The notes under the pieces are model-generated. The model was given only the letters and a program-made list of their open reading frames with translations, searched no databases and was not told the DNA's origin. A DNA stretch of 64,000 nt from Neobacillus sp. FSL H8-0543 (lineage in GTDB: Bacteria; Bacillota; Bacilli; Bacillales; Cytobacillaceae): positions 2,358,501 to 2,422,500 of the forward strand of contig NZ_CP151943.1 in the NCBI RefSeq assembly GCF_038592905.1, given 5' to 3'. The translations under genes were made by a program, and so were the position numbers. Positions 3,125-25,020 of the stretch are shown piece after piece; within the stretch, counting starts at the first letter, position 1, and every line of letters begins with the position of its first letter.

Positions 3125-3358
3125 TCAGCCGCCGCTTACTGGCGGGATAAAAGCAATCTCGTCGCCTTCCCCAATAACTTCATCATCCTGGGCAAATTCT
3201 TCGTTGACGGCTGTCATTACCGTGTCTAATTTTGGCAGGTCGTACTTTGACGCCAACTCTTCCTTCAAATCAGCGACAGTTTTTCCAGCAGCATCAAGTT
3301 TAAGAAACTCTTCACCGACAGCATCACGCAAATGAGCAAAAAAGAGAACCTTATTCAT
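3125..3358 (-). CDS. moaD: molybdopterin synthase small subunit MoaD
   Basis: 77 aa ubiquitin-fold sulfur carrier. The chain ends in PPVSGG, the Gly-Gly tail that is adenylated by MoeB and then thiocarboxylated. It donates sulfur to precursor Z together with MoaE. The start ATG overlaps the moaE stop by 8 bp and has GGAGAGTG upstream, so the two subunits are translationally coupled. Confidence 0.93.
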   Translation of the reverse strand: MNKVLFFAHLRDAVGEEFLKLDAAGKTVADLKEELASKYDLPKLDTVMTAVNEEFAQDDEVIGEGDEIAFIPPVSGG

Positions 3359-3815
3359 TTAAATCACTCTCCTCTGGTTTTCCAGTAGGATAGGCAACGG
3401 TTTCAAGCTGATTGCCCATCCACTCTTCGCCATCTTCCCAATGCTCTTTTTTCCAGATTGGGACAATTTCCTTAATTCGTTCAATTGCATAGCGATTTGC
3501 CTCATATGAATCGGCACGATGGGGCGTAGAGACGGCAATGACAACTGCAATATCAGTTATATCTAAACGACCAACACGGTGCGTAATCGCGACGCGGGAG
3601 CCTTCCCAGCGCTCTTCGATTTCCTTGCCGATTTGTTCAAGTTTCTTCACAGCCATTGCTTCATATGCTTCATAAATTAAGAAAAGCGTCTTTTTTCCCT
3701 TGGTTAATTCCCGGACGGTTCCAATAAACGTAGTGATTGCGCCAGCTTCACGCTGGACCACTTTATCAATAACCTCTTGTGTGTTGATTGGTTCTTTTGA
3801 AATCTGGAAGTTCAT
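3351..3815 (-). CDS. moaE: molybdopterin synthase large subunit MoaE
   Basis: 154 aa catalytic subunit that converts cyclic pyranopterin monophosphate to molybdopterin. Recognisable landmarks are FIGTVRE near residue 30, LIYEAYEAMA, the RVG/HRVGRLDI strand, STPHRADSYEA, and the catalytic K-x-x-x-W segment PIWKKEHWEDGEEW. Full family length. It lies between the moeA fusion and moaD. Confidence 0.93.
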   Translation of the reverse strand: MNFQISKEPINTQEVIDKVVQREAGAITTFIGTVRELTKGKKTLFLIYEAYEAMAVKKLEQIGKEIEERWEGSRVAITHRVGRLDITDIAVVIAVSTPHRADSYEANRYAIERIKEIVPIWKKEHWEDGEEWMGNQLETVAYPTGKPEESDLNE

Positions 3816-3828
3816 CTATTAGCACCTC

Positions 3829-5751
3829 TTAACTCAAGCTTTTTGGTTTTGCATTTTCGACAACAACGTAGCCGCCAATCTTTTCAACCTGCTGTTTAAA
3901 AATATCCGATTGAATAATTCCGATTAACAGCTGGCCGCTTTCGCTTTCAAAAAAGCTTTTTGTCATAACCAAATCATATTCTTCATCAGCAACCGGAATA
4001 AAGTCTAAATCCATGGCTTTTGCTGCGGGATAGATTCCTAATCCCGCGCCCTTAGCATCTCCCTTTACTTCCGCTGCTACCGCTAAATGCGAAAACATTT
4101 CGCGTTCATAACCGACGATTTCTTCAGGTGCAAGACCCGCTTCTGTAAGCAGCAAATCCAAGAGAATCCTCGTCCCTGCCCCTTTTTGTCGGTTAACATA
4201 GTTTGCCTGCTTTTTTGCCACGTCATCAATCGTTTCAATAGCAAGCGGATTTCCTTTTGGCAAAATCCAGCCTTGCATTCTTTTTAAAAATGGATAAAGA
4301 ACAATGTCTTGCCCTGCTAATAATTTCTTTACATAGGAAATATTATATTGCTTTGTATTTGGGTCAAGCAAATGAATGCCCGCTACATGGGCCTCACCTT
4401 TGCGAATCGCCATGATCCCGGCCATACTGCCAACATGTGCAGAGACAATTTTCATGTCTGTTCGCACTCGTTTCAACTGTGACGATAAAAGATCGATCGT
4501 TAAATCGTGGCTGCCGCAAAACATAATCGCATTTTTTATTTCTTCAAGCGGACGCAACAACTCTACTTCGACGTGGTCCCCTTGTTCATAGCCGATTACG
4601 TTTGCGGGTACAACTAGGAGGCCATCTGCTCTGACATAGGACATTGTCACTCCAGCAGCCCTAGTCAGCGGATTGGCAACAAATTGTCCATTCACATAGC
4701 CAATATTCATTCGGACAAAGTCCTCTGCACCCATACCTGAGACAATACGGCGCCCAAGCTTAACTGTTACCGTTTGTCTTTTTGGTTCAGGAATTTGTAA
4801 ATACTTGCACAACAATGGGCGAACAAACCATTCTAATGCCAAATAAGCGGAAACTGGATACCCTGGCACACCAACAACAATTTTGCCGTTAATTTTTCCT
4901 AAAATAACAGGTTTACCTGGCCGTGCGGCAACACCATGTGTGAAAACCGTTCCGATTTCAGCAATAATATGAACGGTATAATCCTTCGAACCTGCCGAAG
5001 AGCCAGCATTGATAACAATAATATCAGACGTTTCAGCTGCTTCCAAGAGTGCTGCTTTAATCCGTTCCGGCTCATCTTTCACAATACTATGTAACTTCGG
5101 CTCTGCGCCCCATTCCTTAACGAAACCCGCAAAAACCGTCCCGTTAAATTCTATAATTTTTCCGGCAGTTAGGGATGAATCCGCATCAACTAGCTCGTTT
5201 CCAGTAGGGATGATCGTAACTACCGGCTTTTTCACAACCGGAAGTTCGAGCTGCTGGGAGGATAATAGTACACCTAAATCTGCAGGTCTAAGAATATGCC
5301 CTTGCGGAAAAAGCATTTCCTCCTGAACCACATCTTCACCAATCGGGCGAATATGCTGCCATGGTGTCGCAGGTTCGATAATTTCAATCGTATCTGCATC
5401 AAGAATGTCGACATTTTCAATCATGATTACCGCATTGAACGGAGCAGGAATCGCATTTCCCGTATCTACATATGAAAACTCTTTACCCTGTTTGAGTTGA
5501 AGAGGATTTTGCTCGTGTGCATTGTACGTACTTTCAGCGATAACGGCAATTCCATCCATTGCCGAAGCGTGATAATGAGGTGTTGAATTCTGCGCAAATA
5601 TCGGCTCGGCTGTAACACGGCCTAAGGCAGCACTTGTTGGAATCCTTTCAATTTCAAGGGGCAGCTGAAACGCTTCGAGAATCTCTCGCTTCGCTTCCGA
5701 TCGGGGTTTGTCCTCTAAATAAATTTTACGTTTATAGCGAATGTGTTCCAT
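3829..5751 (-). CDS. MoeA-like molybdopterin enzyme fused to a periplasmic-binding-protein-like domain
   Basis: 640 aa in two parts. Residues ~1-405 are a complete MoeA fold (PHYHASAMDGIAV, MIENVD, PTGNELV, the NAGSSAGSKDYT loop, and GVPGYPVSAY). Residues ~420-640 resemble a LysR/ModA-like ligand-binding domain (GSHDLTIDLLSSQL, HLLDPNTKQYN, NRQKGAGTRILLDLLL). This fusion is known in Bacillus and Clostridia beside an ordinary moeA. It may insert Mo or W, or sense an oxyanion or cofactor; that part is inference. ATG 5751 follows AAGGGGG. An upstream in-frame ATG at 5781 lacks a site and would overlap moeA. Confidence 0.85.
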   Translation of the reverse strand: MEHIRYKRKIYLEDKPRSEAKREILEAFQLPLEIERIPTSAALGRVTAEPIFAQNSTPHYHASAMDGIAVIAESTYNAHEQNPLQLKQGKEFSYVDTGNAIPAPFNAVIMIENVDILDADTIEIIEPATPWQHIRPIGEDVVQEEMLFPQGHILRPADLGVLLSSQQLELPVVKKPVVTIIPTGNELVDADSSLTAGKIIEFNGTVFAGFVKEWGAEPKLHSIVKDEPERIKAALLEAAETSDIIVINAGSSAGSKDYTVHIIAEIGTVFTHGVAARPGKPVILGKINGKIVVGVPGYPVSAYLALEWFVRPLLCKYLQIPEPKRQTVTVKLGRRIVSGMGAEDFVRMNIGYVNGQFVANPLTRAAGVTMSYVRADGLLVVPANVIGYEQGDHVEVELLRPLEEIKNAIMFCGSHDLTIDLLSSQLKRVRTDMKIVSAHVGSMAGIMAIRKGEAHVAGIHLLDPNTKQYNISYVKKLLAGQDIVLYPFLKRMQGWILPKGNPLAIETIDDVAKKQANYVNRQKGAGTRILLDLLLTEAGLAPEEIVGYEREMFSHLAVAAEVKGDAKGAGLGIYPAAKAMDLDFIPVADEEYDLVMTKSFFESESGQLLIGIIQSDIFKQQVEKIGGYVVVENAKPKSLS

Positions 5752-5767
5752 TTGTTTATTTTCCCCC

Positions 5768-7000
5768 TTATCGTGTTGCAATCACAGGCACATACTCACC
5801 CTGTGAAATACCCTCTTTTTCTGAAGTAATCTCGACTATTCCATCACTTTTTACAAGTGTCGTAATCAGTCCGGATTTTCCAATAATCGGCTCTGCCCAC
5901 CATTCGCCTTCTTTTTCAAATAGGCGTACACGGATGTAATCTGAACGGCCAGGTGCCGAAGGGATGTTTTTCGTCATCCGGGCAAAAACTCGGTCTAGTT
6001 TTTTTTCTGCCTTCTTACCTTTAAGTTTCTCCAATACTTTCTCGCCAAATAGTTTAAAAATAATCATTGCCGATGCTGGATGCCCTGGTAATCCAATTAC
6101 GGGTTTTCCATTTGCCATGGCAAGGATGGTTGGCTTCCCAGGCTTAATAGAAATGCCGTGGACGAATACTCCCGGTGTTCCTAAAGAATCAATTACTTCG
6201 ATGGTATAGTCCTTGGCACCGACCGAACTTCCTCCAGAGAGGATTAAACAATCAACTTGGTCGTAAAGTTCCTTTGCCCGCTGTTGGAATTCCTGGAAGT
6301 CATCCTTAACTATACCGCCATAGATCACTTCTATATCCCATTCAGCCGCTAAACCAGCAATCGTTAAATAGTTGATATCACGAATTTGTCCTACTAAAAG
6401 ATTCTCTGTTTGATAGGGTACAATTTCATCCCCGGAGGAAAGATATCCTGCCTTAAGTTTACGAAAAACAGTTACCTCACTAACGCCTAACGAAGCGAGG
6501 GCACCTAATTCTTGTGGGCGTAACATGGTTCCTTCGTTCAGAAGAACCTCGCCGCTGCGGATATCCTCTCCTGTACGAATGACATTCTCATTAGGAGCAA
6601 TTTGCTTATATACATTAAGTAAACCATCGATGTCTTCACAATGCTCAATCATGATAACACTATCACTGCCTGCTGGAAGCATGCCCCCAGTTGGAACATA
6701 TACGGCTTCTCCAAGCCCAACCTGGTAAGCTGAGGCTTCACCCATTTTCACTTCACCGATTACATTTAAAAAACCCGGCATCGATTCAGAGGAACCATAA
6801 GTATCTCTCGCTCGTACAGCATAGCCATCAACGGTTGAACGGTCAAAACCCGGGACATTTTCCTTGGCGGTGACAGGCACCGCTAAAATATAGTGAAGGG
6901 CATTTTCCAGTGATCGTACCTCGGTCTCTTTAATTGCTGCGACCTGTTCTTCTATTAAGTCGAAGGTTTCTTCGACTGTTTTTACTTTGAAAAATTGCAT
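5768..7000 (-). CDS. moeA: molybdopterin molybdotransferase MoeA
   Basis: 410 aa, the length of ordinary MoeA, which inserts molybdate into adenylated molybdopterin. Motifs in order: PGFDRSTVDGYAV, YVPTGGMLPAGSDSVIMIE, the LSSGDEIVP turn, LILSGGSSVGAKDYT, and GLPGHPASAM. Start ATG 7000 has GGGAGG upstream. It is followed after 16 bp by the second, fused moeA-like gene, so the operon carries two MoeA domains. Confidence 0.92.
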   Translation of the reverse strand: MQFFKVKTVEETFDLIEEQVAAIKETEVRSLENALHYILAVPVTAKENVPGFDRSTVDGYAVRARDTYGSSESMPGFLNVIGEVKMGEASAYQVGLGEAVYVPTGGMLPAGSDSVIMIEHCEDIDGLLNVYKQIAPNENVIRTGEDIRSGEVLLNEGTMLRPQELGALASLGVSEVTVFRKLKAGYLSSGDEIVPYQTENLLVGQIRDINYLTIAGLAAEWDIEVIYGGIVKDDFQEFQQRAKELYDQVDCLILSGGSSVGAKDYTIEVIDSLGTPGVFVHGISIKPGKPTILAMANGKPVIGLPGHPASAMIIFKLFGEKVLEKLKGKKAEKKLDRVFARMTKNIPSAPGRSDYIRVRLFEKEGEWWAEPIIGKSGLITTLVKSDGIVEITSEKEGISQGEYVPVIATR

Positions 7001-7009
7001 TGTGCCTTA

Positions 7010-7618
7010 CTACCTCCCTTGCTGATTTGCCTCGAACCACCTTTTTGCCTCTTCATATTCATGCGGATAATTCATGTTGAAAAAGACACGCTCGATGTCG
7101 CCGTTACTGTAAGCTTGTAATTCCTTTTCAGATAGAGATAGGACGTTTAAGTGGTCAAGCAAATGTTTGATAGGAAGACGTCCATTCTCAATACATTCTT
7201 CTATTTTCTTTACCGTACTCTTTTGAAAAACGGCACATAAGGTTTGTATTTTTCCATTAATTACGGGTACTACTGCATCATAATGGTTAATATTGTTCAC
7301 TAGGGTTTCTGCAAGCGCTCCAGTAACAAACGGCATATCACAGGCAACGATGAAATTTACATCATAGGAAGAAGCTGTTAATCCAGCATGAAAGCCGGCA
7401 AGCGGTCCTTTATTTGGATAATGATCTGCTACCAATTTCACTCCCAAAAATTGATAGTGTTCGGGTTCGTTGGTTACCAGAATTATATCATCAAAATGTA
7501 CCTTAAGTGTTTCTATCAGGCGTTCAATATTGGTTTTCTCATTTATTTTTAAGAGAGCCTTGTTTGTACCCATCCTGCTCGATTTTCCACCTGATAAAAT
7601 AATAGCCGCAGCCTTCAT
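7010..7618 (-). CDS. mobA: molybdenum cofactor guanylyltransferase MobA
   Basis: 202 aa nucleotidyltransferase that joins GMP to Mo-molybdopterin to make the guanine dinucleotide form used by DMSO-reductase-family enzymes such as formate dehydrogenase. It shows the GTP-binding LSGGKSSRMGTNKALL start, NKGPLAGFHAGL, and the metal-binding VACDMPF. The AAGAAGG site precedes ATG 7618. The bis-MGD product is what the upstream alpha subunit needs. Confidence 0.92.
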   Translation of the reverse strand: MKAAAIILSGGKSSRMGTNKALLKINEKTNIERLIETLKVHFDDIILVTNEPEHYQFLGVKLVADHYPNKGPLAGFHAGLTASSYDVNFIVACDMPFVTGALAETLVNNINHYDAVVPVINGKIQTLCAVFQKSTVKKIEECIENGRLPIKHLLDHLNVLSLSEKELQAYSNGDIERVFFNMNYPHEYEEAKRWFEANQQGR

Positions 7619-7633
7619 GAATCATGCACCTTC

Positions 7634-8443
7634 TTAATTTGTAAGTTTTTTCTCCCCAACGGCTTGATAGCCATTTTCCTGGGCGATGAAATCTAGATGT
7701 ATTGTATTTAAATCTAGCATAGCAGAAGATGGTTTGCTGAGGTATTGTCTTGTATCTATTACTTTAATATATCCTTTACATTCTTCGCAAACCTGAATTT
7801 GTGAAGCAGCATCGCCTTCGATTGTTAAAAACTGAATGGTCTTGTGATCGTCATTCCCACAGTGGGCACATTCTAGGCGTTTCGCATCCCAATGAACTAG
7901 ACAGCGCGGGCATTGCATCACCTTTTGTCCTTCCCCTTCAAGAACGGCAAGTCGTGCTGGTTCACCGCAAACTGGGCATCCTGCACCTGGGACAGCACGC
8001 TGAATTCCTTCTTGTACAGCTTCAGCAGTTAGCTGCAAATAGGGACGAAGTGCAGATTCTGCGAGGAATTGTGGAATCCAATCTTCCAGTCCGTTTTCCT
8101 CGGCAAAGTTGCCAAAATAAAACTGGTTGAAGGAAAATGCTTCATCAATCCAACGGATAGCTACTTCTTCATTAAGCAGATTACTGATTCCTGCCAGTTT
8201 CGGTTCAAGTTCGGGATTATTCTCGATTAATAAGGATTTTATTTCCTCTATCCACTGTAGGAATAGTGAAATATCAAAATCAATAGCCGTTAATGCTGCA
8301 GCAGGCACTCCTGCTGACATAGCAGCTTTATCAAGGTTTGGTGTAATAGATTCTGGATTAATGCTCTGTTTCCACTTTTCTTGCAGCTTTAATATGTCTT
8401 TGTGCAAATTTTGATATTCCTTTGAAACTACTGACTTTTTCAT
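7634..8443 (-). CDS. fdhE: formate dehydrogenase accessory protein FdhE
   Basis: 269 aa. The C-terminal half carries the FdhE set of cysteine pairs (CPVCGEPA, CPRCLVHW, CAHCGND, CEECKGY), which in E. coli FdhE bind iron and are needed for activity of respiratory formate dehydrogenases. The N-terminal half is helical with no motif. It directly follows the gamma subunit, with an intra-operon hairpin between them. Confidence 0.9.
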   Translation of the reverse strand: MKKSVVSKEYQNLHKDILKLQEKWKQSINPESITPNLDKAAMSAGVPAAALTAIDFDISLFLQWIEEIKSLLIENNPELEPKLAGISNLLNEEVAIRWIDEAFSFNQFYFGNFAEENGLEDWIPQFLAESALRPYLQLTAEAVQEGIQRAVPGAGCPVCGEPARLAVLEGEGQKVMQCPRCLVHWDAKRLECAHCGNDDHKTIQFLTIEGDAASQIQVCEECKGYIKVIDTRQYLSKPSSAMLDLNTIHLDFIAQENGYQAVGEKKLTN

Positions 8444-8532: not shown

Positions 8533-9258
8533 TCATGCGCCTTTTTTCTTGTTTTTGCCTTTACCATGGCCTTTTGGATCATCTAGGTCAGGGAAGTTGC
8601 CTTTTGCTACTTCTTCATCATACCAGTCAGGATAGTGCTCTTTTGCCCACCAAGCTGGTACTTCCCCTGTAATAACGCCTGAATAACCAGGGCGAGAGTT
8701 TTTGTGAACTACACTAAGGTAGACATGGCCAACTACTACTGCAATCGCAAGACCAAAGCCTACGTTATGAAGGAAGTATCCCCACTGAACGACTGCCCTA
8801 GGGAAGAATTCAGGGAACCACATTGGGAATCCAGAGCCAATAATCAATAACGCTGTAACAATTTGGATGATTGAGTTGATTTTCTCACCTGCGTTAAAGA
8901 ATGATTGTCTAATATGTTTGAATTTGAATCCGAACAGTTCTTTAACAAATTCAGTAAAGAAACCAATATCCCTCTTTTTCCACGTAACAAGCTCTTTCAT
9001 CCAAAGCTTAAAGCCCTTGAAGTCCCAAATTACCCAGATGAACGTTGGCGTAATAAACGCTACTGCGAAAATCCGATGAAGTAAACGTGCACCTTCAGGT
9101 CCGCCTAGTACCGGATATAACCAATTAAAGAAATCGGTGTACATTGGTAATGCTGTGATATAAAGGGCAAAGAAGGATATGGCGTTAACACCATGTGCCC
9201 AAACAAAGGCTTTAGAAAAACGTCTTACTTTTACTGTAGGCTTCTGCTGATTACTCAT
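8533..9258 (-). CDS. fdnI: formate dehydrogenase-N gamma subunit, cytochrome b556
   Basis: 241 aa di-heme b-type membrane subunit with four transmembrane helices (around residues 15-35, 55-75, 120-140 and 155-175 as read). Helix-borne histidines include the WAHGVN, LHRIF and GHVYLS motifs. It takes electrons from the beta subunit to the quinone pool. ATG 9258 follows GGAGGTG and overlaps the beta stop by 8 bp; a longer upstream frame is not supported. The C-terminus is a very basic Lys/Gly tail, an unusual but harmless-looking cytoplasmic end. Confidence 0.9.
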   Translation of the reverse strand: MSNQQKPTVKVRRFSKAFVWAHGVNAISFFALYITALPMYTDFFNWLYPVLGGPEGARLLHRIFAVAFITPTFIWVIWDFKGFKLWMKELVTWKKRDIGFFTEFVKELFGFKFKHIRQSFFNAGEKINSIIQIVTALLIIGSGFPMWFPEFFPRAVVQWGYFLHNVGFGLAIAVVVGHVYLSVVHKNSRPGYSGVITGEVPAWWAKEHYPDWYDEEVAKGNFPDLDDPKGHGKGKNKKKGA

Positions 9259-10081
9259 GGCTTTCACCTCCGTCTTCGTCTTTTCCTTTATTTTTTTTAC
9301 TGATAATATTGTTAGTAATAAATGCTCCGACAACTGCCATTGTTGTGGCACCAATCATCATCTTACCTAGTGGCTGTGCATAATCCTTCCAAAGGACAGC
9401 TGATGTTGGAACAACTGGGTTTTCAGGCAATCCGTAGACAGATGGCTTTTCTGCTAATACATAAATCGTGTGCGTACCGCCAACTCCCTGTGGGTTATAA
9501 ACCATGGCATTAGGGTAACGTCCTTTAATTTCTTTGACACGTTGTTCTGCCTTTTGGATCATTGCCTTTTGATCGCCAAACTCCATTGCACCTGTATGAC
9601 AAGTTGTAACGCAAGCTGGCTGTAGGCCTTCCTCAATACGGTCCGTACATTGTGTACATTTATGTGCTTTTCTGTATTCCTTACCGTTTTTATCCTTATA
9701 TTCTTTAAGAGAAATAACTTCAAACGGACAGTTTTGCGTACAATACCCACAACCTACACAGGCATCTTGATCAATGACAACGGTGCCGAACTTTGTGTAG
9801 CTGATTGCATTTTCCGGACAAACCTTTTCACAGGCTGCATCCGTACAATGGAAACAGGTAGAGTGACGGAAAAGGTAGTCAAGATTTCCTTTTGAATCTT
9901 CATGCTCGATATATTGTAAAACGTTCCAAGTATCGGCAGTTGTCTTGGTATGTGACTGGGCACTTCCTAAGAAATCCTGCGGTTCAGCTGGAAGGTCATT
10001 CCAGTTTTTACAAGCTACCATACAGGCACGGCAGCCGTCACACTTGGTAACATCGACATATTTCACATATTCAGTAGCCAT
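9251..10081 (-). CDS. fdnH: formate dehydrogenase-N beta subunit, 4x[4Fe-4S]
   Basis: 276 aa electron-transfer subunit. Four cysteine clusters are visible in order: CDGCRACMVAC, CFHCTDAACEKVC, CVGCGYCTQNC, and CTQC...CVTTC. A single C-terminal transmembrane helix (MIGATTMAVVGAF) anchors it, as in E. coli FdnH, so the iron-sulfur part lies outside the membrane. The ATG overlaps the alpha stop codon by one base (TAATG), giving translational coupling. Confidence 0.94.
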   Translation of the reverse strand: MATEYVKYVDVTKCDGCRACMVACKNWNDLPAEPQDFLGSAQSHTKTTADTWNVLQYIEHEDSKGNLDYLFRHSTCFHCTDAACEKVCPENAISYTKFGTVVIDQDACVGCGYCTQNCPFEVISLKEYKDKNGKEYRKAHKCTQCTDRIEEGLQPACVTTCHTGAMEFGDQKAMIQKAEQRVKEIKGRYPNAMVYNPQGVGGTHTIYVLAEKPSVYGLPENPVVPTSAVLWKDYAQPLGKMMIGATTMAVVGAFITNNIISKKNKGKDEDGGESHE

Positions 10082-13065
10082 TAGTCAGCCCTCCTTACGT
10101 CACATAGGAATGCCTTATACTCAGGTATGGTTGTATTTGCATCCCCGATATGAGGTGTCAGGCGATTTGCTGTATCCCCAGTTGCGATTCCCTTGTATCC
10201 AAAATGCCATGGCATTCCGATTTGATGAACCTTCTTACCGTTTATAGTATAAGGTTTAAAACGTTTAGTCACCATGGCGAAGGCTTTTACCTCTCCGCGT
10301 GCAGAGCTTACAAGAATTTTGTCTTTGTTCTTAATGCCTTTTTCTTTTGCTAATTCTTCACTTATTTCCACATACATATGTGGTACAAGCTCTGATAGCC
10401 ATGGCTGATTACGGGTCATTGAACCTGATTGCCAATGCTCACTAACGCGGTAAGTTGTAGCAACAATCGGGAAGTCCGCTTTGAATCCACGTTTATTGAA
10501 GTCTCCTTCAATTACAACAGCCGCTGGATTCATTTCTTGGCTTGAAAAAGGATTTGCTACCGGGCTTTCAAATGGTTCATAGTGTTCAGGGAACGGACCG
10601 TCATTTAATGTTGGTGCGTACAGTAAGCCTACTCCATCCTTGTTCATGATAAACGGATCGGTTCCTGTTGGATCTGTTGGAGCTTTTGTTGGAACAAAGT
10701 CAGGTACGTCATGTCCAACCCATTTCTTTTGAACATCATCCCACCAGATAACTGCTTTATCCTTGCTCCATGGCTTACCGCTTGGATCTGCTGATGCACG
10801 GTTGTAGATAATTCGGCGGTTTGCTGGCCATGCAAATGCCCAATTCAGGTAATTACTCATGCCTGTATCTTTGTTGTCACGGTTTTTCGCACGATTTTTT
10901 CCTTCTTCAGGATAGAAACCAGAATAGATCCAGTTACCCGAGCAGGTTGACCCGTCATCTTTAAGAGCACCAAAGCCGGCAACCTGTTTACCAGTATTTA
11001 CATCATAGCCGTTGATTTCCTTACAAACTAAATCAATATCCGGATGATGTCCTTCACCGTAATTCCAGTAAAGAGCATTGATTGTTTTTGAAGCAGGACT
11101 TGCTTCATTTTTATAAAGTGCTTTAATTCTTGTCGCAAGCTCATGGATAATTTCTAAGTCTGCTTTTGACTCACCTAATGGCTTAATTGCCTGCCAACGG
11201 TACTGCATCCAACGGCCGCTGTTAGATATGCTTCCTTCTTTTTCATAAGAAGAACATGCAGGAAGGAAGAATACTTCTGTATTAATCTTAGATGGGTCGC
11301 TGCCAGCTTCTTTTTGCCAGAAGGCTGATGATTCAGTTTCCCAAAGATCAACTGCTACTAACCACTTAAGGTTTCCAAGAGCTTCTTTTTCTTTTCCAGC
11401 GTTCGGTCCGCCGACAACTGGGTTGGTACCAAATAGGAACGCTCCTTCTAGCTCGCCTTTATACATCGCATTAAACAAGTTAATGTGTGAGTAGTTTTTA
11501 TTACCTTTTGGCAGATTTTGATAGCCAAATTCATTATCCTTTGTTGCATTCGGACCATACCAAGCTTTTAAAAGACTGGCAACGAATTTTGGTTTATTAC
11601 TTTGATAGCCTGTTTTCGGTGTTTCCTTTGCATTATAGCCCTCAAGTGTGGCATGCTCTGGAATTGCTTTTGGTGTTGCCAGGTAACCTGGGATTGTATC
11701 ATACAATAGTGCAAAGTCGGTTGAACCTTGAACATTGGATTCACCGCGCATTGCATTAATTCCTCCGCCTGGAAGGCCGATATTTCCAAGAAGCATCTGA
11801 ATGATGGCGAAAGCGCGAACATTTTGGGTGCCAACAGTATGTTGTGTTGTTCCCATCGCATACAAAATCGTTCCTGATTTACCTACTTGACCTGTTGAAC
11901 AGAATGTTTCACAAACCTTTAAATAGTCTTCTTTTGATGTCCCTGTTACTGAAGTAACTGCATCAACATTATAACGCGAGTAATGCTTTTTCATTAATTG
12001 GAATACGGAACGAGGATGTTCTAATGTTTCATCCTTCACTGGTGTTCCATCTTCATTTGTTTCCCATGCCCATTGTGTTTTATCATAAGCACGTTTTGCT
12101 TCGTCATATCCTGAGAATAAACCATCATTAAATTTAAAGCTGTCTTTTACGATAAAGCTTGCGTTTGTATATTTAGCAACATACTCTTTGTGGTAAAGAT
12201 TATTTTCTAGCGCATAGTTAATCATCCCGCCGACAAACGGAATATCCGTTCCTGAGCGAAGCGGTGCATAAACATCAGACATTGACGAGGTTCTTGTGTA
12301 ACGTGGATCCACGCTAACAATCTTTCCGCCTTTATCCTTTGCTTTTTGCAGCCATCTAAAGCTTATTGGATGATTTTCAGCAGGGTTTGCGCCCATAATC
12401 AATGCACAATCCGTATATTGCAAATCATTCCAATGGTTAGTCATTGCTCCACGTCCAAATGAAGGTGCCAGACCGGCAACCGTAGAACTATGTCATATTC
12501 GTGCCTGGTGCTCTAAATAGGTAACACCAAGCCCTCTCATCATTTTCGCCAGCAGATAACACTCTTCATTGTCAAGAGCTGCTCCACCAAGACTGGCAAT
12601 CGCCTCAGTCTTATTTACAATCAAGCCATCTTCTTTTTCGACAAATGTTTTGTCACGTGTTTCTTTTGTGCGCTTGGCAATGGTTTCATACATCCATTCC
12701 CATTCTTTTTCTTCCCATTTACTGCTTCCTGGTGCACGATATAAAGGTTTTTTTACTCGTTTTTCAGAAGTATACAATTGTCTAATTGTCGTACCTTTAC
12801 TACATAATTTACCTTCGTTAATTGGGTTATCCGGATCCCCCTCCGTATAAACCACTTCATTGTCTTTTGTATGAACTAAAATTCCACAGCCAACGCCGCA
12901 AAAACAGCAGATGGTAGGTGTAACAGTTGATGAAGCAATCTTGAACTCTTTCGTACTAGCGTGGGCCTTTTTTTCATTAAAGCCTAATTCAACTACGGCC
13001 AAGGTTGCTGCAGTGGCACCGGACAACTTCAAAAACTGTCGGCGATTTAAGTTGATTTCAACCAT
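10081..13065 (-). CDS. fdnG: formate dehydrogenase-N alpha subunit, selenocysteine-containing, Tat-exported
   Basis: 994 aa once the in-frame TGA at 12495-12493 is read as selenocysteine 191. The upstream part (to 12496) starts with a Tat signal (NRRQFLKLSGA) and holds the N-terminal 4Fe-4S motif CCFCGVGCG...LCSKG. It ends EHQARI, then U, then HSSTVAGLAPSFGRGAMTNHW, matching E. coli FdnG around its Sec196. The downstream part has the Mo-bis-MGD domains (GNIGLPGGGINAMRGESN, LFGTNPVVGG, a C-terminal dinucleotide-binding domain). A canonical SECIS hairpin follows the TGA. It would oxidise formate at the outer face of the membrane. Start ATG 13065 has AAGGAG. Standard gene callers break this into 12493-13065 and 10081-12444. 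Confidence 0.93.
12464..12495 (-). promoter_or_regulatory. UGA(Sec) codon and bacterial SECIS element
   Basis: The TGA at 12495-12493 is followed after 11 nt by GGTTGCCGGTCTGGCACC (12481-12464). It folds as GGU(U)GCC / GGCACC with a bulged U and apical loop GGUCU. This matches the E. coli fdhF element (GGUUGCAGGUCUGCACC) in stem, bulge and loop, and the 11-nt spacing is the same. It should recruit SelB-Sec-tRNA. Confidence 0.92.
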
Positions 13066-13146: not shown

Positions 13147-13908
13147 TCAATGCATCTCTACAGCAGATTCTTTGATTAGGTCATTCTGCACTCTTCCTGT
13201 TGAGGTATAAATATTTGCCATTTTCCCTCTTAGATAGCCAATTACCTCAATATTTAAGTATTTTGCTAATTGGACTGCTTGCTTAGTTGCAGCTGTTCGA
13301 GATCCTATGATAGGAAAACCAAACTTCGCTGCTTTGGAGAGCATTTCATATGAAACCCTTCCGGTTGTTAACAAAACTAACCGTTCGGGAGGTAAACTAT
13401 TTCGCAGTGCATAACCAATGATCTTATCCACGGCATTATGACGCCCGATATCTTCCCGGACTGTAATGCTGCCTGCTTCGTCAATAATACAGGCACCGTG
13501 CATTCCGCCTGTTTCAAGGTATAAGGGCGAATTTTGAGCAAATTCACTTCTTTTCTTCAATAAATAACTTAATTTATGGCTAGTACCGTTTGATACTTTT
13601 TCAAAATTTTTAACATCTGTCATTGAGAAAAACGTCACACCGCGTCCACAGCCTGCCGTGTAGTGCTTCTTTTTCGAAAACATCTCTTCTTCATTAAATC
13701 CATTCAGAAGAGTAACATGGATGCTTCCCATTTCTTCGCTAAAAATTACAGACTCTACTTCACTTGCCGTTTGAATAAACCCTTCAGAAAACAAATAACC
13801 GTATGCCCAATCTACTAGATTGTGTTTTGTTAATTGAAACACAGCTATTTCATATCCGTTTACCACTAGGCTAATTGGATATTCATCAGGACAGCCTTTC
13901 TGGATCAT
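13147..13908 (-). CDS. fdhD: formate dehydrogenase sulfurtransferase FdhD
   Basis: 253 aa. FdhD passes sulfur from a cysteine desulfurase to the molybdenum cofactor of formate dehydrogenase. The family traits seen are DEYPISLVVNG, YLFSEGFI, the active-site loop AGCGRG, the TGGMHGACI strand, REDIGRHNAVDKIIG, and TTGRVSYEM. Only one Cys is present in the loop, where E. coli has CxxC; Bacillus homologues are similar as far as I recall. ATG 13908 follows AAAGGGGTGA, so the ATG 18 bp upstream is less likely. First gene of the operon. Confidence 0.9.
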   Translation of the reverse strand: MIQKGCPDEYPISLVVNGYEIAVFQLTKHNLVDWAYGYLFSEGFIQTASEVESVIFSEEMGSIHVTLLNGFNEEEMFSKKKHYTAGCGRGVTFFSMTDVKNFEKVSNGTSHKLSYLLKKRSEFAQNSPLYLETGGMHGACIIDEAGSITVREDIGRHNAVDKIIGYALRNSLPPERLVLLTTGRVSYEMLSKAAKFGFPIIGSRTAATKQAVQLAKYLNIEVIGYLRGKMANIYTSTGRVQNDLIKESAVEMH

Positions 13909-14400
13909 CGCTTTCACCCCTTTCATGAATTCACATTCATGGTGTACCTATTGTAATTTTGCTACCATATACCCTTCAGCGATATTTATCACAACAAAAT
14001 TGAAAGAATGATACTTTTTAAATTTATAACAATTTAAAAAGGTATAACTGCCAAGACATTGACAATCCTCCGACAAATTTGTGTCCTTTTGTTGTACTTT
14101 TTGTGAATCGACAACTTTTCCACTGTATATAAGTTAAAAACTGCACATCCGTAAGCGGTTTCAGTCCTATTTACTAGTAGTTCTTCGCTTTTATAGTTCC
14201 ATCGTACGATGGCCAACGTCTTTTAGGAAGTAACATTTATCACGAAAAGAAGGTTATCAGCGTAATAACCATCAATTGTCATTCTTCTGACAAAAATAGA
14301 AAAGCGGAGGACTTGTCTGGTAAAAAAATTACTATATTTCCGTGATTGTTTTATAATAGTAAATAGTGTTTCATGTACCAGCTAAGGAGGAGAATACATA
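13909..14400. other. divergent intergenic region fdhD / pdxK
   Basis: About 490 bp without a convincing gene. It holds a Crp/Fnr-like site and -10 for fdhD (13950-13993). A short dyad GGTTAT...ATAACC at 14252-14270 has no assigned role. A TATAAT at 14352-14357 is a possible -10 for pdxK. A 60-codon minus-strand frame at 14034-14216 has no ribosome site. Confidence 0.6.
13950..13993 (-). promoter_or_regulatory. Fnr/Crp-type site and promoter of the fdh operon
   Basis: Minus-strand TGTGATAAATATCGCT (13993-13978) matches TGTGA-N6-TCACA at 8 of 10 positions. A TACAAT -10 box lies at 13955-13950, which puts the site centre about 42 bp before the expected start of transcription. That is the class II activator position for Fnr/Crp proteins. 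The spacing supports function although the right half-site is weak. Confidence 0.55.
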
Positions 14401-18216: not shown

Positions 18217-20085
18217 ATGAAAAAATGGATTCCAATTGCTTCAGGTTTAATGGCAGGCTTTGTTGCTGCAACGATTAGTTTTGCAGATTTCTCAAAGAAT
18301 ACGAATTCTGAACTTTCCTCTGCAACTAACAAAAGTGATGCTGAAAAAGTTTATGTTCCTTTCGGTGAAAAGGATGATTATTATTTATTCGCTTCAGGCG
18401 GGCACTCTGGTCAAATGTTTATTTACGGTGTTCCTTCGATGCGTCAAATTCGAACCGTTCCTGTATTCTCTCAAGACTCAGCAACAGGCTATGGATTTGA
18501 TGAGCATTCTAAGGAAATGATGGGGGGCTATACATGGGGAGACCTTCACCACCCGGCTTTTTCAGAAACTAATGGCGATTATGACGGTAAATACATGTTT
18601 GCAACCGATGTCGGAAATAGCCGTGCAGCGGTTATGGACCTTGAAACCTTTACAACAAAGGATATCTTAAAGGTACCGAATACTAGCGGACCTCACTGTG
18701 CGGCCTTCGTTACGGAAAATACGGAGTATATGTTCCTGCCAACACGATTTGCCGTTCCACTTGGACAAGAATATGAATCTCTTGATGACTACAGCACAAA
18801 GTACCGTGGTGTTATGTCTGCGGTTACATTTGACGAGGAAAATACAAAATTAAATATTGGTTACCAAGTTGCTCTTCCGCCTTGGTCTTATGATCTTTCT
18901 GATGCTGGCAAAAAGAGTTCAGCGGACTGGGCTGTCATGACAACCTATAACACAGAGGAAGCAACAACCAATCTTGAAATCAATGCTTCACAGGCAGACC
19001 GTGACTTCATTGTTCTTTTTAACTGGAAAGAGCTTGAGCAAATGGTGAAGGACGGACAGTATGACGATGTAACTGGTCAAAAAATGATTTTCCCTGAAAA
19101 ACATAAAGGCGGAATTTACCTTGTGCCGGTTGCGAAATCACCGCATGGTGTTGACGTAACCCCTGATGGAAAGCACTTTATCGCTTCAGGAAAATTGGCT
19201 CCATCAATGACTGTATTTTCTTTTGAAAAAGCGTTTGAAGCCGTTAAAAACCAAGACTTCTCAGGTGAACGGAACGGAATTCCAATCTTAAAGTATGAAT
19301 CAGTAATGGAAAGAGAAGTAAACCCTGAAAATGCTCTTGGACCGCTTCACACTCAATTTGATGACAAAGGCATGGCTTACACAACAATGTTTATTTCTTC
19401 CGAGATTGTTAAATGGGATCCAAAAACGGGCGAAACATTAGACCGTGTTCCGGTTCAATATTCTCCAGGACATTCTGTTGCTGCCGAAGGTGACACGGTT
19501 TCACCTGATGGACAATGGTTAATTGCCTTAAATAAGATTGCTAAAGACACCTATTTATCTGTTGGTCCTTCTCATCCAGAATCGATGCAATTAATTGATA
19601 TCAGCGGAAAAATGAAGGTCATTCAATCATCACCGGTTAACCCGGAACCGCACTATGCACAAATGATTAAGGCAGACAAAATTAAAACAATCGAAGTTTA
19701 TCCGAAAGATGAAAAGAACAAGCTTGCTACCTACAAACAAGAAGATGCCAAAATAGTACGAAATGGCAATAAAGTAGATGTTTACGGTATTGCGATGCGC
19801 TCAAAATTCATTTTTGACTCAAAGGCTAAACGTCCTGACGTAATCGAAGTAAATGAAGGCGATCAGGTAACCATCCATCTGACAAATACGGACTTCGATG
19901 AAGATATTACCCATGGTTTTGCAATTAACAGTTATGACTTAAACATTGAGGTACAACCTGGTCAAACGAATACCATCACATTCACTGCTGATAAAGCTGG
20001 TACTTTCCCAATTTACTGTACAAACTTCTGTTCAGCACTGCACCAAGAAATGACCGGCTACTTCCTTGTAAAACCGAAGAACTAA
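18217..20085 (+). CDS. nosZ: nitrous-oxide reductase NosZ (Sec-type, clade II)
   Basis: 622 aa. The signal is a simple Sec-like N-terminus (KKWIPIASGLMAGFVAATISFA) without twin arginines, which fits clade II NosZ of Gram-positives. The beta-propeller part provides CuZ histidines (DLHHPAF, GPHCAAF, PHGVDVT, LHTQF, GHSVAAEGD, PHYAQ). The C-terminal cupredoxin domain has the CuA motif CTNFCSALHQEM and the HGFAINSYD strand. It reduces N2O to N2. Ribosome site AAGGTGGTG. It forms a two-gene unit with nosC, ending in a hairpin. Confidence 0.96.
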   Translation: MKKWIPIASGLMAGFVAATISFADFSKNTNSELSSATNKSDAEKVYVPFGEKDDYYLFASGGHSGQMFIYGVPSMRQIRTVPVFSQDSATGYGFDEHSKEMMGGYTWGDLHHPAFSETNGDYDGKYMFATDVGNSRAAVMDLETFTTKDILKVPNTSGPHCAAFVTENTEYMFLPTRFAVPLGQEYESLDDYSTKYRGVMSAVTFDEENTKLNIGYQVALPPWSYDLSDAGKKSSADWAVMTTYNTEEATTNLEINASQADRDFIVLFNWKELEQMVKDGQYDDVTGQKMIFPEKHKGGIYLVPVAKSPHGVDVTPDGKHFIASGKLAPSMTVFSFEKAFEAVKNQDFSGERNGIPILKYESVMEREVNPENALGPLHTQFDDKGMAYTTMFISSEIVKWDPKTGETLDRVPVQYSPGHSVAAEGDTVSPDGQWLIALNKIAKDTYLSVGPSHPESMQLIDISGKMKVIQSSPVNPEPHYAQMIKADKIKTIEVYPKDEKNKLATYKQEDAKIVRNGNKVDVYGIAMRSKFIFDSKAKRPDVIEVNEGDQVTIHLTNTDFDEDITHGFAINSYDLNIEVQPGQTNTITFTADKAGTFPIYCTNFCSALHQEMTGYFLVKPKN

Positions 20086-20095
20086 TGCTGGTGAT

Positions 20096-20122
20096 GGGTA
20101 TCAATTAATTAAATTGATACCC
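20096..20122 (+). terminator. hairpin after nosZ
   Basis: GGGTATCAAT pairs with ATTGATACCC. The T tract is poor (TTCTCCG), so it may stabilise the nosCZ mRNA or only partly terminate before nosD. Confidence 0.6.
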
Positions 20123-20155
20123 TTCTCCGTTTAATCTTTAGCTCTGTGAACTTGG

Positions 20156-20349
20156 CTGTTGATTGGAGCTCCAGGCGCTTCGCTTTCCGCGGGCGTGCCG
20201 GGGAGCCTCCTCGGCGCTTTAGCGCCTGTGGGGTCTCCCCAGCCCCGTACTCCCGCAGGACATTGAATAAGCTTCCTTGAATTTGCACCGCACGAAGGAA
20301 ATGCGGTAGCATTTTCGAGGAGTCTCGCGCCTTCCGCTCCAATCAACAG
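20156..20349. repeat. MITE-like interspersed repeat, copy 4 (with ~61-bp insertion)
   Basis: 194 bp bounded by CTGTTGATTGGAGC and GCTCCAATCAACAG. Relative to copy 3, an extra ~61 bp (from CATTGAATAAGC to CATTTTCGA) is inserted between CGCAGGA and GGAGTCTCG. It lies between nosZ and the rest of the nos genes. Confidence 0.87.
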
Positions 20350-20392
20350 GTTAGTTTTAACAAAGCCTAATTTTTAGAAAGGTGTGGTTAAC

Positions 20393-20965
20393 TTGATTGA
20401 TAAGAGTAGAAAATTGTCGATTTTATCTTCTTTACTCATAACACTTTCAGCAGGATTACTAGTCCTTTCTATCTTTTTCCCATGGTGGCAAATGGTCTTT
20501 TTTGCCCCGCAATATCCTGAAGGGCTGAATATTATTGTTTATCCGAATAAACTTGAGGGTGAGATTGATATTGTTAATGGACTGAATCACTATATCGGTA
20601 TGGAAAACTTTAGTGAGGAGAATTTCCCGCAATTACAGTATCTTTCCTATTTAGTTATTGGTTTAGCAGCCATTACGCTTTTAGTAGCGCTGCTTAGAAA
20701 CAAAAAGCTCCTTTACGGATTAATTGGACTGTTTATGGTTGGCGGCGTACTTGGAGTTATTACGCTTCGGAAAGCACTCGTCCATTTTGGTACAAATTTA
20801 AGCCCTACTGCTCCCATTAAGATTGACCCATTTGTACCGCCGATTTTAGGGCATAATACAGTGGCAAACTTTTTAACCAATAGCATTCTTGGCTACGGTA
20901 CATATTTCCTTATCGCTGCCTTTATTCTATTACTCATTCCGTTATGGAAGGACCGAAAAAAATGA
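20393..20965 (+). CDS. nos-cluster 4-TM membrane protein of unknown function
   Basis: About 190 aa with four hydrophobic helices (roughly residues 10-30, 85-103, 109-126 and 163-185). An outside loop between helices 1 and 2 contains FPWWQMVFFAPQYPEGL. No cysteine or heme motif is seen. Similar small polytopic proteins occur in nos clusters of Gram-positive and other clade II denitrifiers, but I cannot name a function. A TTG at 20393, eight bases after AGAAAGGTG, is the likelier start; a GTG at 20384 overlaps that site. Its stop overlaps the nosD start (ATGA). Confidence 0.72.
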   Translation: MIDKSRKLSILSSLLITLSAGLLVLSIFFPWWQMVFFAPQYPEGLNIIVYPNKLEGEIDIVNGLNHYIGMENFSEENFPQLQYLSYLVIGLAAITLLVALLRNKKLLYGLIGLFMVGGVLGVITLRKALVHFGTNLSPTAPIKIDPFVPPILGHNTVANFLTNSILGYGTYFLIAAFILLLIPLWKDRKK

Positions 20966-22299
20966 AAAAACTGCTCTTTCTTTTCGTTTTCTCACTTCTG
21001 TTTGTCATCCATCCTGAGAAAAATATAGCCGCCGAAAACTTACAATCGCTTATCGACAGCTCGGAAGAAGGAGCGGTATTAAAACTTGAAGATCGGACGT
21101 ATGAGGGCAATCTTGTTCTCATGAAGCCGATTACCATTATTGGCACGAGGAATACCGTGATTAAAGGTGACGGAAAGGGTAATGTTATTTCTATCAAAGC
21201 ACCTGGGGTAACACTTAAACAGCTCACCGTAACCAATGGCGGTATGGACCGAAATTCGCCAGAAGAGTATGCTGCCATCAAAATCCATACAAATGGAAAT
21301 GTAGTTGAACATATCAAGATCCGCAATAGTTTTCACGGTATTTATTTAAGTCAAGCTCATGAAAATACCATCCGTTATGTTGACATTAAAGGCATAGGCA
21401 AAGGCGAAATTGCTGCCCAAGGAAATGGATTTCACGTCTATTACGCGAACGACAATATCCTTTCCCATAACACCATCGAAGGCACACGGGATGGAATGTT
21501 CTTTGACTACTCAAACAACAATCAAAGCTATGAAAATAACATAAGTAACACTAGATATGGACTTCACTATATGTATTCAGACAAAAATATCTTTAAAAAG
21601 AATACCTTTACGATGAACACTGGCGGCGCAGCTATTATGAACTCAAATCACTTAATTCTTGAGGACAATCAATTCATTGTAAACTATGGAAATAAATCGT
21701 TTGGGTTATTACTGCTTCAAGCAAATGATAATCAAATTATGAACAATACTTTTTACATGAACCAACGAGGACTTTACATTGATCAAGCCACACGCAACCA
21801 TATCGAGGGCAATAAAATTACTCAAAATCAGATTGGCATTGAGCTTTGGGCTAGTTCCAATCAACAAATTTTTACACAAAATCAAATTACTGAAAATACG
21901 ATTCCCGCTGTTACCATTGGTGGAACGAGTGAGAGCAATTCCTGGAGCAAGGATAGCAAAGGAAACAACTGGGGAAGTTCGTTCCCGCTCACCGACTTAA
22001 ATCAGGATGGCCTCGGGGATTTTCCGATAACCTATCAATCTTCTTTATACCAGCTGATTGAAGAGCAGGAATTATCCTATTTATTTTTAAAAAGTCCTGC
22101 AATTACGATATTTGAAAAAATGAACGCCCTACTAAAAGATGAAAAAGTTATGTTTAACGACCCGCACCCGTTGGCCGCGGAAAAAGGGAATGCTGGTTCA
22201 ATGCTACTTATTGCTTTTGCGCTGCTTGCTGGGTTGATTTTATTAAAAGGGAGACATCGACTATGCATTATATTTGGAAGGAATGGAAAGAAAACATAA
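20962..22299 (+). CDS. nosD: copper-site maturation protein NosD
   Basis: 445 aa. A Sec signal (KKLLFLFVFSLLFVI) is followed by a right-handed beta-helix of CASH/PbH1 repeats (NVVEHIKIRNSFHGIYL, NDNILSHNTIEGTRDGMFF, NGIGIELW-type turns). One C-terminal helix (LLIAFALLAGLILL) ends at a basic tail. NosD works with the NosFY transporter to assemble the CuZ site of NosZ outside the membrane. ATG 20962 overlaps the upstream stop; the last 37 bp overlap nosY. Confidence 0.93.
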   Translation: MKKLLFLFVFSLLFVIHPEKNIAAENLQSLIDSSEEGAVLKLEDRTYEGNLVLMKPITIIGTRNTVIKGDGKGNVISIKAPGVTLKQLTVTNGGMDRNSPEEYAAIKIHTNGNVVEHIKIRNSFHGIYLSQAHENTIRYVDIKGIGKGEIAAQGNGFHVYYANDNILSHNTIEGTRDGMFFDYSNNNQSYENNISNTRYGLHYMYSDKNIFKKNTFTMNTGGAAIMNSNHLILEDNQFIVNYGNKSFGLLLLQANDNQIMNNTFYMNQRGLYIDQATRNHIEGNKITQNQIGIELWASSNQQIFTQNQITENTIPAVTIGGTSESNSWSKDSKGNNWGSSFPLTDLNQDGLGDFPITYQSSLYQLIEEQELSYLFLKSPAITIFEKMNALLKDEKVMFNDPHPLAAEKGNAGSMLLIAFALLAGLILLKGRHRLCIIFGRNGKKT

Positions 22300-23060
22300 G
22301 AGGGAAGGGATTATGGCTCGCTTTAAGCATTGTTGTTCTCCTAATGATTAGTATTCTGTTTCGTTCCACTGCCCTTTCATTTGATAAAGGCTTTTATGTC
22401 CTCTTAATTAATTTGTTTGATACGATTATCTACTTTATCCCGATCCTTTGCTTATTTATTGGCGCCTTTTCAATCTTTCAAGAAAAAGAACAAAAGACGT
22501 TAATCATGCTATTAACAAAGAAAGACAACTATATGAGCTTTTTAATCAAAAAGAGCCTTGGACTTTACGTCGTCGTCCTTGTCCCGCTCCTTGTCTGGTT
22601 CTTCTTGTACCTGCTATTACTCAAATTTAACTTCCAACTGGATATGAAAAGCTACTACATCTTTGTGGCTGCGATTGTGATTTTGTCTATTACTTTTCTT
22701 CAAATCGGAGCAGCAATCGGAAGTTTCAGCCGTTCGCGGATGCAAATTATCGGCTATACGATTTTTGTCTGGTTTTACTTTTTCTTCCTGCATGATTTTA
22801 TCTTGCTTTCCTTTCTATCTGACGTAACCTATGAAAATGTAAAGTTATTTTCAAGCATGTACTTTTTAAATCCCTTACAGTCGGTAAGGATGTTTTTAGA
22901 AACGGGGATGGGTGTTTATTCCTTCGGCCATATGTCACGGCTTCTGCAGGCCTTTATGTGGACGCAGCCAGTATTCTTTTTGCTTGGAAACCTCCTATTC
23001 TGGCTTGCTACCTCGATAGGAGCAGCACTTGTCTTTCACCGTAAGGAGGGCTTCGAATGA
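22263..23060 (+). CDS. nosY: NosY-like ABC transporter permease
   Basis: 265 aa ABC-2 type permease with six predicted helices. It opens MHYIWKEWKENIRGKG, followed by a long helix (LWLALSIVVLLMISILF). Together with NosF it should supply a sulfur species or mechanical work for CuZ assembly via NosD. Ribosome site AAAGGGAGA inside the end of nosD; the stop overlaps the nosF start (ATGA). Position between nosD and nosF fixes the assignment. Confidence 0.85.
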   Translation: MHYIWKEWKENIRGKGLWLALSIVVLLMISILFRSTALSFDKGFYVLLINLFDTIIYFIPILCLFIGAFSIFQEKEQKTLIMLLTKKDNYMSFLIKKSLGLYVVVLVPLLVWFFLYLLLLKFNFQLDMKSYYIFVAAIVILSITFLQIGAAIGSFSRSRMQIIGYTIFVWFYFFFLHDFILLSFLSDVTYENVKLFSSMYFLNPLQSVRMFLETGMGVYSFGHMSRLLQAFMWTQPVFFLLGNLLFWLATSIGAALVFHRKEGFE

Positions 23061-23734
23061 TTAAGGTAACCAATCTAAACCAATCCTTCGGGAAAAAAAC
23101 AGTCTTAGAGGACATCACCATCGAAATTTGCAGACATGAAATTTGCGCGCTTGTCGGCCGCAATGGTGCCGGGAAATCTACTTTTATCAATAGTTTGCTC
23201 GGTTTACTGCCAGTTAAGCAAGGAACGATTACAATCAATGAAATCGAAGTGACAAAGAAAAACAGTGAATGGAAAAGTGCGATAGCTTATCTTCCTGAAA
23301 AATTTCAGTTATATCCAATGTTAACAGGACTTGAGAATCTTACCTTTTTTGCAGAAGTGGTCGAAAAAGCCGCCAACCAAGAACGCATTCAGCAGGTACT
23401 TACTTCGGTAAGCCTGTGGGATGACCGCGATGTCCAGGTGAAAAAATATTCAAAGGGCATGCTCCAGCGTCTTGGCTTAGCGATTACCCTTTATCAGGAT
23501 TCCAGCATCCTGATTCTTGATGAGCCCACAAGCGGAATTGATCCGATGGGAAGGAAGGAAATTTTAGAAGTGTTAAAATCACTTCACGATAAAACCATCC
23601 TCCTCTCCTCACACCATCTGGATGAAATCAAACAGGTATGTACCCATGTCGCCTATTTGGATAATGGGAAAATGAACAAATACACGGTTGCAGAATTCTT
23701 GCAAACACATAATCTTGGAGGGATTGACTCATGA
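23057..23734 (+). CDS. nosF: NosF-like ABC transporter ATPase
   Basis: 225 aa. Walker A GRNGAGKST, Q-loop region IAYLPEKFQLYPML, signature YSKGMLQRLG, Walker B ILILDEPTSGID, and switch histidine in LLSSHHLDE. The chain is shorter than proteobacterial NosF but complete as an ATPase. Both ends overlap neighbours by 4 bp, indicating tight coupling with nosY and the following lipoprotein gene. Confidence 0.9.
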   Translation: MIKVTNLNQSFGKKTVLEDITIEICRHEICALVGRNGAGKSTFINSLLGLLPVKQGTITINEIEVTKKNSEWKSAIAYLPEKFQLYPMLTGLENLTFFAEVVEKAANQERIQQVLTSVSLWDDRDVQVKKYSKGMLQRLGLAITLYQDSSILILDEPTSGIDPMGRKEILEVLKSLHDKTILLSSHHLDEIKQVCTHVAYLDNGKMNKYTVAEFLQTHNLGGIDS

Positions 23735-24681: not shown

Positions 24682-25020
24682 AATTCAGACAGGTTTGGTG
24701 AATTCATGGGCAATCTTGCCTGGTTTTTCATATGGAGTTGTCCTTCATCGAACTTATGAAGGACATCTTGCCTGATTTTTCGAACGGAGTTGTCCTTCAT
24801 CGGGCTTATGAAGGACATCTTGCCTGATTTTTCGAACGGAGTTGTCCTTCATCGGGCTTATGAAGGACATCTTGCTCGGTTTTCCATATGGAGTTGTCCT
24901 TCATCGAACTTATGAAGGACATCTTGCTCGGTTTTCCATATGGAGTTGTCCTTCATCGAACTTATGAAGGACATCTTGCTCGGTTTTTCGCACGGAGTTG
25001 TCCTTCAGACAGGTTTGGAC
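24682..25020. repeat. 52-bp tandem array of perfect hairpins
   Basis: GGAGTTGTCCTTCATC recurs at 24734, 24786, 24838, 24890, 24942 and 24994, exactly 52 bp apart. Each full unit contains a 10-bp perfect stem TGTCCTTCAT / ATGAAGGACA with a 7-nt loop (CGAACTT or CGGGCTT). The last unit is truncated. Both flanks carry TTCAGACAGGTTTGG (near 24685 and 25003), also within small dyads. No open frame runs through it. Confidence 0.92.

Follow-up and report, generated by a model that had tools for sequence, protein, structure and literature searches.

A UGA-interrupted formate dehydrogenase gene with a SECIS-like hairpin points to a selenoprotein in Neobacillus

A stretch of 64,000 nucleotides from Neobacillus sp. 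FSL H8-0543 (contig NZ_CP151943.1, positions 2,358,501 to 2,422,500; here called the window) carries fdhA, a gene for the alpha subunit of a formate dehydrogenase with a TGA codon inside its reading frame. An earlier reading of the letters alone (the sequence-only reading) had taken this gene to encode a selenoprotein. Our analysis confirmed the observation of one UGA-interrupted fdhA frame with a hairpin, and supports that interpretation. We regard it as almost certain, judging from the sequence, that fdhA is a standard bacterial selenoprotein gene, in which selenocysteine (Sec) insertion at UGA-191, predicted to depend on SelB and the hairpin, would yield one exported formate dehydrogenase alpha subunit of 994 aa. 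The reading frame is thereby settled for a respiratory enzyme which a plain list of open reading frames (ORFs) cuts in two.

The fdhA frame runs on the minus strand for 994 codons (Table 1), and the TGA at 12495-12493 is its sole internal stop; the alpha subunit is indeed open on both sides of one TGA, as first described. In the mechanical ORF list it appears as two pieces, one of 190 aa (12493-13065) and one of 787 aa (10081-12444). The mass computed for the full chain, with Cys in place of Sec, is 110.7 kDa, which agrees with the product of about 110 kDa foreseen in the sequence-only reading. FdhA matched TIGR01553 (formate dehydrogenase-N alpha) with 1277.7 bits (cut-off 814.2) over residues 6-991, and the Pfam domains Molybdopterin, Fe4S4, Molydop_binding (dinucleotide-binding) and TAT_signal were found in it. 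In a comparison with the PDB, its best solved relatives were formate dehydrogenases deposited as 'selenocysteine-containing'; among them are 9qm0, 8cm4 and 6sdv, which are Desulfovibrio-type FdhA. The residues around the TGA read QARI-U-HSSTV, and Sec191 aligned with residue 192 of 9qm0 FdhA (192 being counted by hand), within the identical stretch EHQARI-x-HS. The Sec or Cys followed by His of the active site is thus present, as QARI-U-H aligned to a Sec-containing protein. The claim that these residues match the Sec site of E. coli FdnG (QAR-x-U-H) stands by way of this Desulfovibrio-type alignment; FdnG itself (PDB 1kqf) matched with 958.6 bits. A molybdopterin oxidoreductase for another substrate, such as a nitrate or sulfur-compound reductase, would have the fold common to the family, and the NasC, NapA and PhsA models do match FdhA, more weakly. 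However, TIGR01553 alone exceeds its cut-off among the 25 families listed for FdhA, the best-matching proteins of solved structure are formate dehydrogenases, and fdhA stands next to fdhD, an fdhE-like gene and a putative beta/gamma pair, so that we consider a different substrate very improbable.

The hairpin GGU-U-GCC-GGUCU-GGC-ACC, with six pairs and one bulged U, starts 11 nt 3' of the TGA. The bacterial selenocysteine insertion sequence (SECIS) core, with its bulged U and GGUCU loop, that the sequence-only reading had placed at this distance was therefore borne out. The 79 Sec genes described below comprise 46 distinct sequences; each of these keeps all six pairs, and a single pair varies among them (U-A in 42, U-G in 4); the conservation of the hairpin is mostly invariance, not covariation. 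The 14-mer core GTTGCCGGTCTGGC occurs exactly at two sites in the genome, each just 3' of an in-frame TGA in a formate dehydrogenase gene, and 15 more genome sites differ from it by two bases; a reversed-pattern control, allowing up to two mismatches, gave 12 sites. The best Rfam model for the region was SECIS_3 (RF01989), aligned over its whole length with an E-value of 4.3e-12, and SECIS_2 scored 14.6 bits, which is chance level. Across the 5.3-Mb genome, the fdhA site was the sole place reported for RF01989 (E <= 0.001; of 590 first-look candidates, 150 were scored). Of the 14 control genomes, E. coli alone gave a match to the model.

Conservation was assessed in relatives from a scan of named genomes, where the best 80 of 293 were kept; the closest copies of fdhA belong to Neobacillus niacini (94 and 91% identity). 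The Sec codon is TGA in 78 of these 80 and TGT in a single one (L077, Robertmurraya siralis); the remaining one, L110, is a fragment that falls short of the site. With the last two excluded and the window copy added, 79 Sec genes entered the codon analysis. Codons 195-199 (ACG GTT GCC GGT CTG), which make up the 5' arm, the loop and the first base of the 3' arm of the hairpin, are identical in all 79; at codon 200, which lies in the 3' arm, 75 genes have GCA and 4 have GCG. The mean synonymous entropy of the 443 codons with a conserved residue is 1.28 bits, and besides codons 195-199 only codons 991-992 (AGG AGG), just before the fdhB start, have an entropy of zero; the latter are plausibly the fdhB ribosome-binding site. 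The sequence-only reading had also called for a comparison with a Cys homologue. One exists, the TGT gene L077: its frame is uninterrupted and it retains most of the surrounding residues (TVPGLS for TVAGLA), but its DNA has lost the hairpin (-0.3 versus -6.3 kcal/mol for the 18 bases), which makes it a natural control for the replacement of Sec by Cys. The same Robertmurraya siralis record holds this Cys-type copy (L077:4992-7973) and a Sec-type copy (L091); the latter may be contamination, because it lies on a separate contig of 6,745 bases, with 94% identity to the copy in a different species (L089).

The genome is a single contig of 5.296 Mb, 99.8% complete, in which selA, selB, selC and selD had been predicted to lie outside the fdhA locus. 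All four were found, each over its family cut-off: selA with 561 bits (cut-off 268), selB with 339 bits (cut-off 242) and winged-helix domains at its C-terminus, selD with 405 bits (cut-off 125), and tRNA-Sec (selC) in two copies with 63.5 and 59.7 bits (gathering score 47) and, by ARAGORN, the anticodon UCA. The lack of selB or selC in a complete genome, which the sequence-only reading had named as speaking against it, is not what this genome presents. In addition, selD contains a TGA of its own at codon 18 (counted from the chosen start), and so, at codon 137, does the gene for a second formate dehydrogenase, of the FdhF type (TIGR01591, 801.7 bits, cut-off 666). With fdhA, the FdhF-type gene and selD, the genome thus has at least three genes that carry a UGA and belong to known selenoprotein families. 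The Rfam search of the selD and FdhF-type loci gave no SECIS at E <= 0.1, and their SECIS elements therefore rest on the TGA, on homology and, for the FdhF type only, on the 14-mer.

Two further explanations of the UGA have to be weighed against Sec. Reading through UGA-191 as another amino acid, for instance Trp or Cys, would need no selenium, and the TGT at this site in the Cys homologue is compatible with it; yet the genome has the complete sel set together with a second UGA formate dehydrogenase and a UGA-containing selD, and the hairpin shows complete synonymous constraint wherever the gene has Sec, whereas the Cys gene has lost it. We rejected read-through on this conservation and on the sel genes, and find it scarcely conceivable. 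A pseudogene or a sequencing error, to which the stop splitting the frame into two mechanical ORFs might point, is refuted by TGA at the same site in 78 of 80 relatives and 30 of 30 same-genus loci read, by the single TGA within the match of each of the 49 same-genus genomes that have fdhA and by the lack of any further stop here, and deserves next to no credence.

The selenoprotein reading is also backed by a survey of 61 genomes of the genus, which for the machinery covered selA, selC and selD. A match to fdhA was present in 49 of them (E <= 1e-100) with one TGA inside each, the gene of one genome (G002) being divided between two contigs with the TGA in the first piece; in all 30 loci read, our own copy included, this TGA occupies the Sec position, and the 18 bases of the hairpin that come after it are identical. 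The FdhF-type gene was found in 53 genomes (E <= 1e-150), again with a TGA inside each, and in G005 and G016 the sole match is 51-52% identical. Sixty genomes, the same ones in each case, have selA, selC and selD, the last with one TGA in all 60, and for each of the 29 genus loci submitted to it ARAGORN reported a tRNA-Sec whose anticodon is UCA. All 49 genomes with fdhA have selA and selC, as do all 55 that carry at least one of the two dehydrogenases; G009, the only genome devoid of selA, selC and selD, has neither dehydrogenase. The statement that selenoproteins are uncommon in aerobic spore formers fails for this genus, in which it is normal to have the Sec machinery and Sec is generally used. 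Five genomes (G010, G015, G025, G032 and G059) have selA, selC and a TGA-containing selD, with neither formate dehydrogenase at the thresholds used. A doubtful extension, which we consider unlikely, would be that Sec decoding is near-universal and stably kept in the genus and that in these five SelD is the sole selenoprotein, or the selenoprotein belongs to an unsought, perhaps undescribed family. If SelD were alone, the apparatus would persist mainly for the synthesis of the enzyme that supplies its own precursor.

Several results weigh against the selenoprotein reading. The covariance-model check that had been proposed for 12440-12500 did give a significant SECIS_3 match, but its 54 bits lie under the family gathering score of 63, and the whole window is without an Rfam match at the default gathering threshold; we therefore speak of a SECIS element working like SECIS_3, and not of a member of RF01989. 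Pairs of the lower stem in the minimum-energy fold of the window copy are kept in 20, 21 and 33 of the 46 sequences, others in 46 of 46. In shuffle tests the fold was unremarkable, with z -1.59 for 61 nt (16 of 200 shuffles as good), +0.44 for 46 nt (124 of 200) and -1.70 for 31 nt (11 of 200). Being ordinary against shuffles, with its long lower stem unconserved, full-length SECIS folding was dropped as evidence. Since the six apical pairs are kept throughout, the functional unit that is supported is the apical hairpin. Because the relatives in the conservation sets descend from common ancestors and probably include genomes of the genus survey, the counts cannot be taken as independent. The tRNA-Sec model is unspecific by itself: of the 14 control genomes, 5 gave scores over its cut-off, and in three of these (Caulobacter, Thermus and Thermotoga) the selA model was silent. 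Finally, because there is a single sel-negative genome and the co-occurrence of fdhA and sel genes gives a Fisher p of 0.098, the genus survey supports the Sec reading and is no proof alone.

In E. coli, SelB carries Sec-tRNA(Sec) to the ribosome at UGA. For decoding, export, metal and electron acceptor we infer the working of the Neobacillus enzyme from the known biology of the family. SelA and SelD would produce Sec-tRNA(Sec); on the mRNA in the ribosome, SelB would bind the hairpin that directly follows UGA-191 and deliver Sec there, and the two ORF halves would be translated as a single 994-aa alpha subunit. FdhA, which has the signal for twin-arginine translocation (Tat), would be exported by that route and matured with FdhD and the adjoining molybdenum-cofactor genes. 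FdhB and the cytochrome b subunit would carry formate electrons to the quinone pool, probably to feed oxygen or nitrogen-oxide (N-oxide) respiration. The neighbourhood of fdhA, with fdhD, fdhB, the gamma subunit, the fdhE-like gene and the molybdenum-cofactor genes, fits a Tat-exported, membrane-bound, quinone-reducing formate dehydrogenase, and the nearby nitrous-oxide reductase gene makes N-oxide respiration a possible electron sink. The fdhB start overlaps the fdhA stop (TAATG), and termination at the UGA under selenium shortage might therefore lower fdhB too. The best models for the beta and gamma subunits are FDH-beta and formate-DH-gamm, both with scores under the NCBI cut-offs, and the listed start of the gamma-subunit gene is probably too early (in-frame ATG at 9258). 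In the interval 18217-24633 the reductase gene is followed by nosD-like, ATP-binding cassette (ABC) permease-like and ABC ATPase-like genes, these last three read from the ORF list only. A tandem array at 24713-25007 (52-bp unit, 5.7 copies, 92% matches) lies between the ORF ending at 24633 and the ORF at 25287, and no tandem repeat of the window touches fdhA.

Table 1. Features of the fdhA locus, its neighbourhood and the second UGA-containing dehydrogenase (positions in the window unless indicated).
Feature	Position	Strand	Evidence
fdhA (fdnG-type), formate dehydrogenase-N alpha subunit, 994 aa with predicted Sec191, Tat signal	10081..13065	-	TIGR01553 1277.7 bits; Pfam
UGA codon for predicted selenocysteine 191	12493..12495	-	sequence; TGA in 78/80 relatives, 30/30 same-genus loci read
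SECIS-like region (best Rfam model SECIS_3)	12440..12498	-	54 bits, E 4.3e-12, gathering score 63
Conserved apical hairpin GGU-U-GCC-GGUCU-GGC-ACC, bulged U	12464..12481	-	11 nt past UGA; pairs, codons, loci conserved
fdhD, sulfurtransferase for formate dehydrogenase	13147..13926	-	TIGR00129 170.1 bits (cut-off 140.9)
fdhB, predicted iron-sulfur beta subunit	9251..10081	-	TIGR01582 219.5 bits, below cut-off 334.7
Predicted cytochrome b gamma subunit	8533..9354	-	TIGR01583 79.3 bits, below cut-off 115.85
fdhE-like accessory protein	7634..8443	-	TIGR01562 47.5 bits, below cut-off 187.65
mobA-like, molybdenum cofactor guanylyltransferase	7010..7618	-	NF011056 170.8 bits, below cut-off 379
moeA-like molybdotransferase	5768..7000	-	NF011068 409.7 bits, below cut-off 534
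moeA with extra C-terminal domain, molybdopterin biosynthesis	3829..5781	-	NF011068 713.6 bits, over cut-off 534
moaE-like molybdopterin synthase subunit	3351..3815	-	NF011061 93.2 bits, below cut-off 215
Nitrous-oxide reductase	18217-20085		889 bits, cut-off 625; 'Sec-dependent' in the NCBI model name means Sec secretion
FdhF-type UGA formate dehydrogenase	L026:181-2238 (genome C1:392151-394205)		TIGR01591; same 14-mer hairpin core past TGA

The two selC copies (L009:1501-1597 and L010:1501-1597; genome C1:4291423 and 4786641) are 495 kb apart and differ at two positions, where by our own reading both changes leave wobble pairs. The second copy lies about 120 nt from a gene for a phage-type integrase of 237 aa, with genes for a terminase small subunit, a DUF3987 protein and a CHC2 zinc-finger protein nearby. 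At least two selC genes were found by the Rfam model in 6 of the 61 genus genomes. In three genomes (L182 of G060, L183 of G025 and L184 of G040) 9-16 kb separate two selC copies, which share 97, 97 and 92 identical bases, respectively, and a tyrosine recombinase gene lies within about 170 nt of one copy. It looks as if selC serves as an integration site for mobile elements in the genus. A search for a phage origin of the second selC gave no matches in 50,697 phage records, and a 23-mer search for its source gave no exact matches in viral contigs; among 72,556 plasmid records four matched, the best being a Peribacillus simplex plasmid (82% covered, 97.5%). In another genome (G037, L158:535-626), ARAGORN reported an additional tRNA-Sec (UCA) that is absent from the Rfam search list and lies at a distance of about 0.9 kb from the first.

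The Neobacillus fdhA is a further member of an already known selenoprotein family. No bacterial selenoprotein family is commoner than formate dehydrogenase alpha, for which one survey has 822 organisms in its Table 3 (PMC5029168); it is counted among the five most widespread families in a second (PMC9312934), and tops the family table of a third with 103 (PMC1794560). The third, from 2006, has three selenoprotein families and three selenoproteins for Firmicutes/Bacillales, and holds Sec use to favour anaerobic conditions; in the first, 40.4% of Sec users are aerobic and 35.8% anaerobic (PMC5029168). For denitrifying Bacillus, a formate transporter tied to formate dehydrogenase is named, and no selenoprotein, in the relevant passages of one paper (PMC3475470). 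None of the papers in the library searched combines 'selenoprotein' and 'Neobacillus', and among the titles listed none dealt with Sec in Neobacillus or relatives.

Among known systems, the Neobacillus locus compares with the selenoproteomes of a survey that includes Bacillales and has formate dehydrogenase alpha at the head of its family table; Neobacillus is not named in the relevant passages (PMC1794560). The hairpin resembles Rfam SECIS_3 in the alignment of the full model, the bulged U, the GUCU loop and the position directly 3' of the UGA; it differs in its loop, GGUCU where the consensus is AGUCU, and in its poorly paired lower stem. As in known bacterial Sec-decoding systems, selA, selB, selC and selD are all present; here, however, the genes are scattered, with selA and selD neighbouring and divergent and selB and selC elsewhere, and selC is in two copies. 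The protein matches the Desulfovibrio-type FdhA (9qm0, 8cm4, 6sdv) with 1067 to 1073 bits and FdnG (1kqf) with 958.6 bits, in both cases over its full length, shares the aligned Sec position with 9qm0, and has in common with these enzymes the Tat signal and, probably, the beta and gamma partners. Unlike them, it belongs to a spore-forming Bacillaceae, and its predicted beta and gamma subunits score under the NCBI cut-offs.

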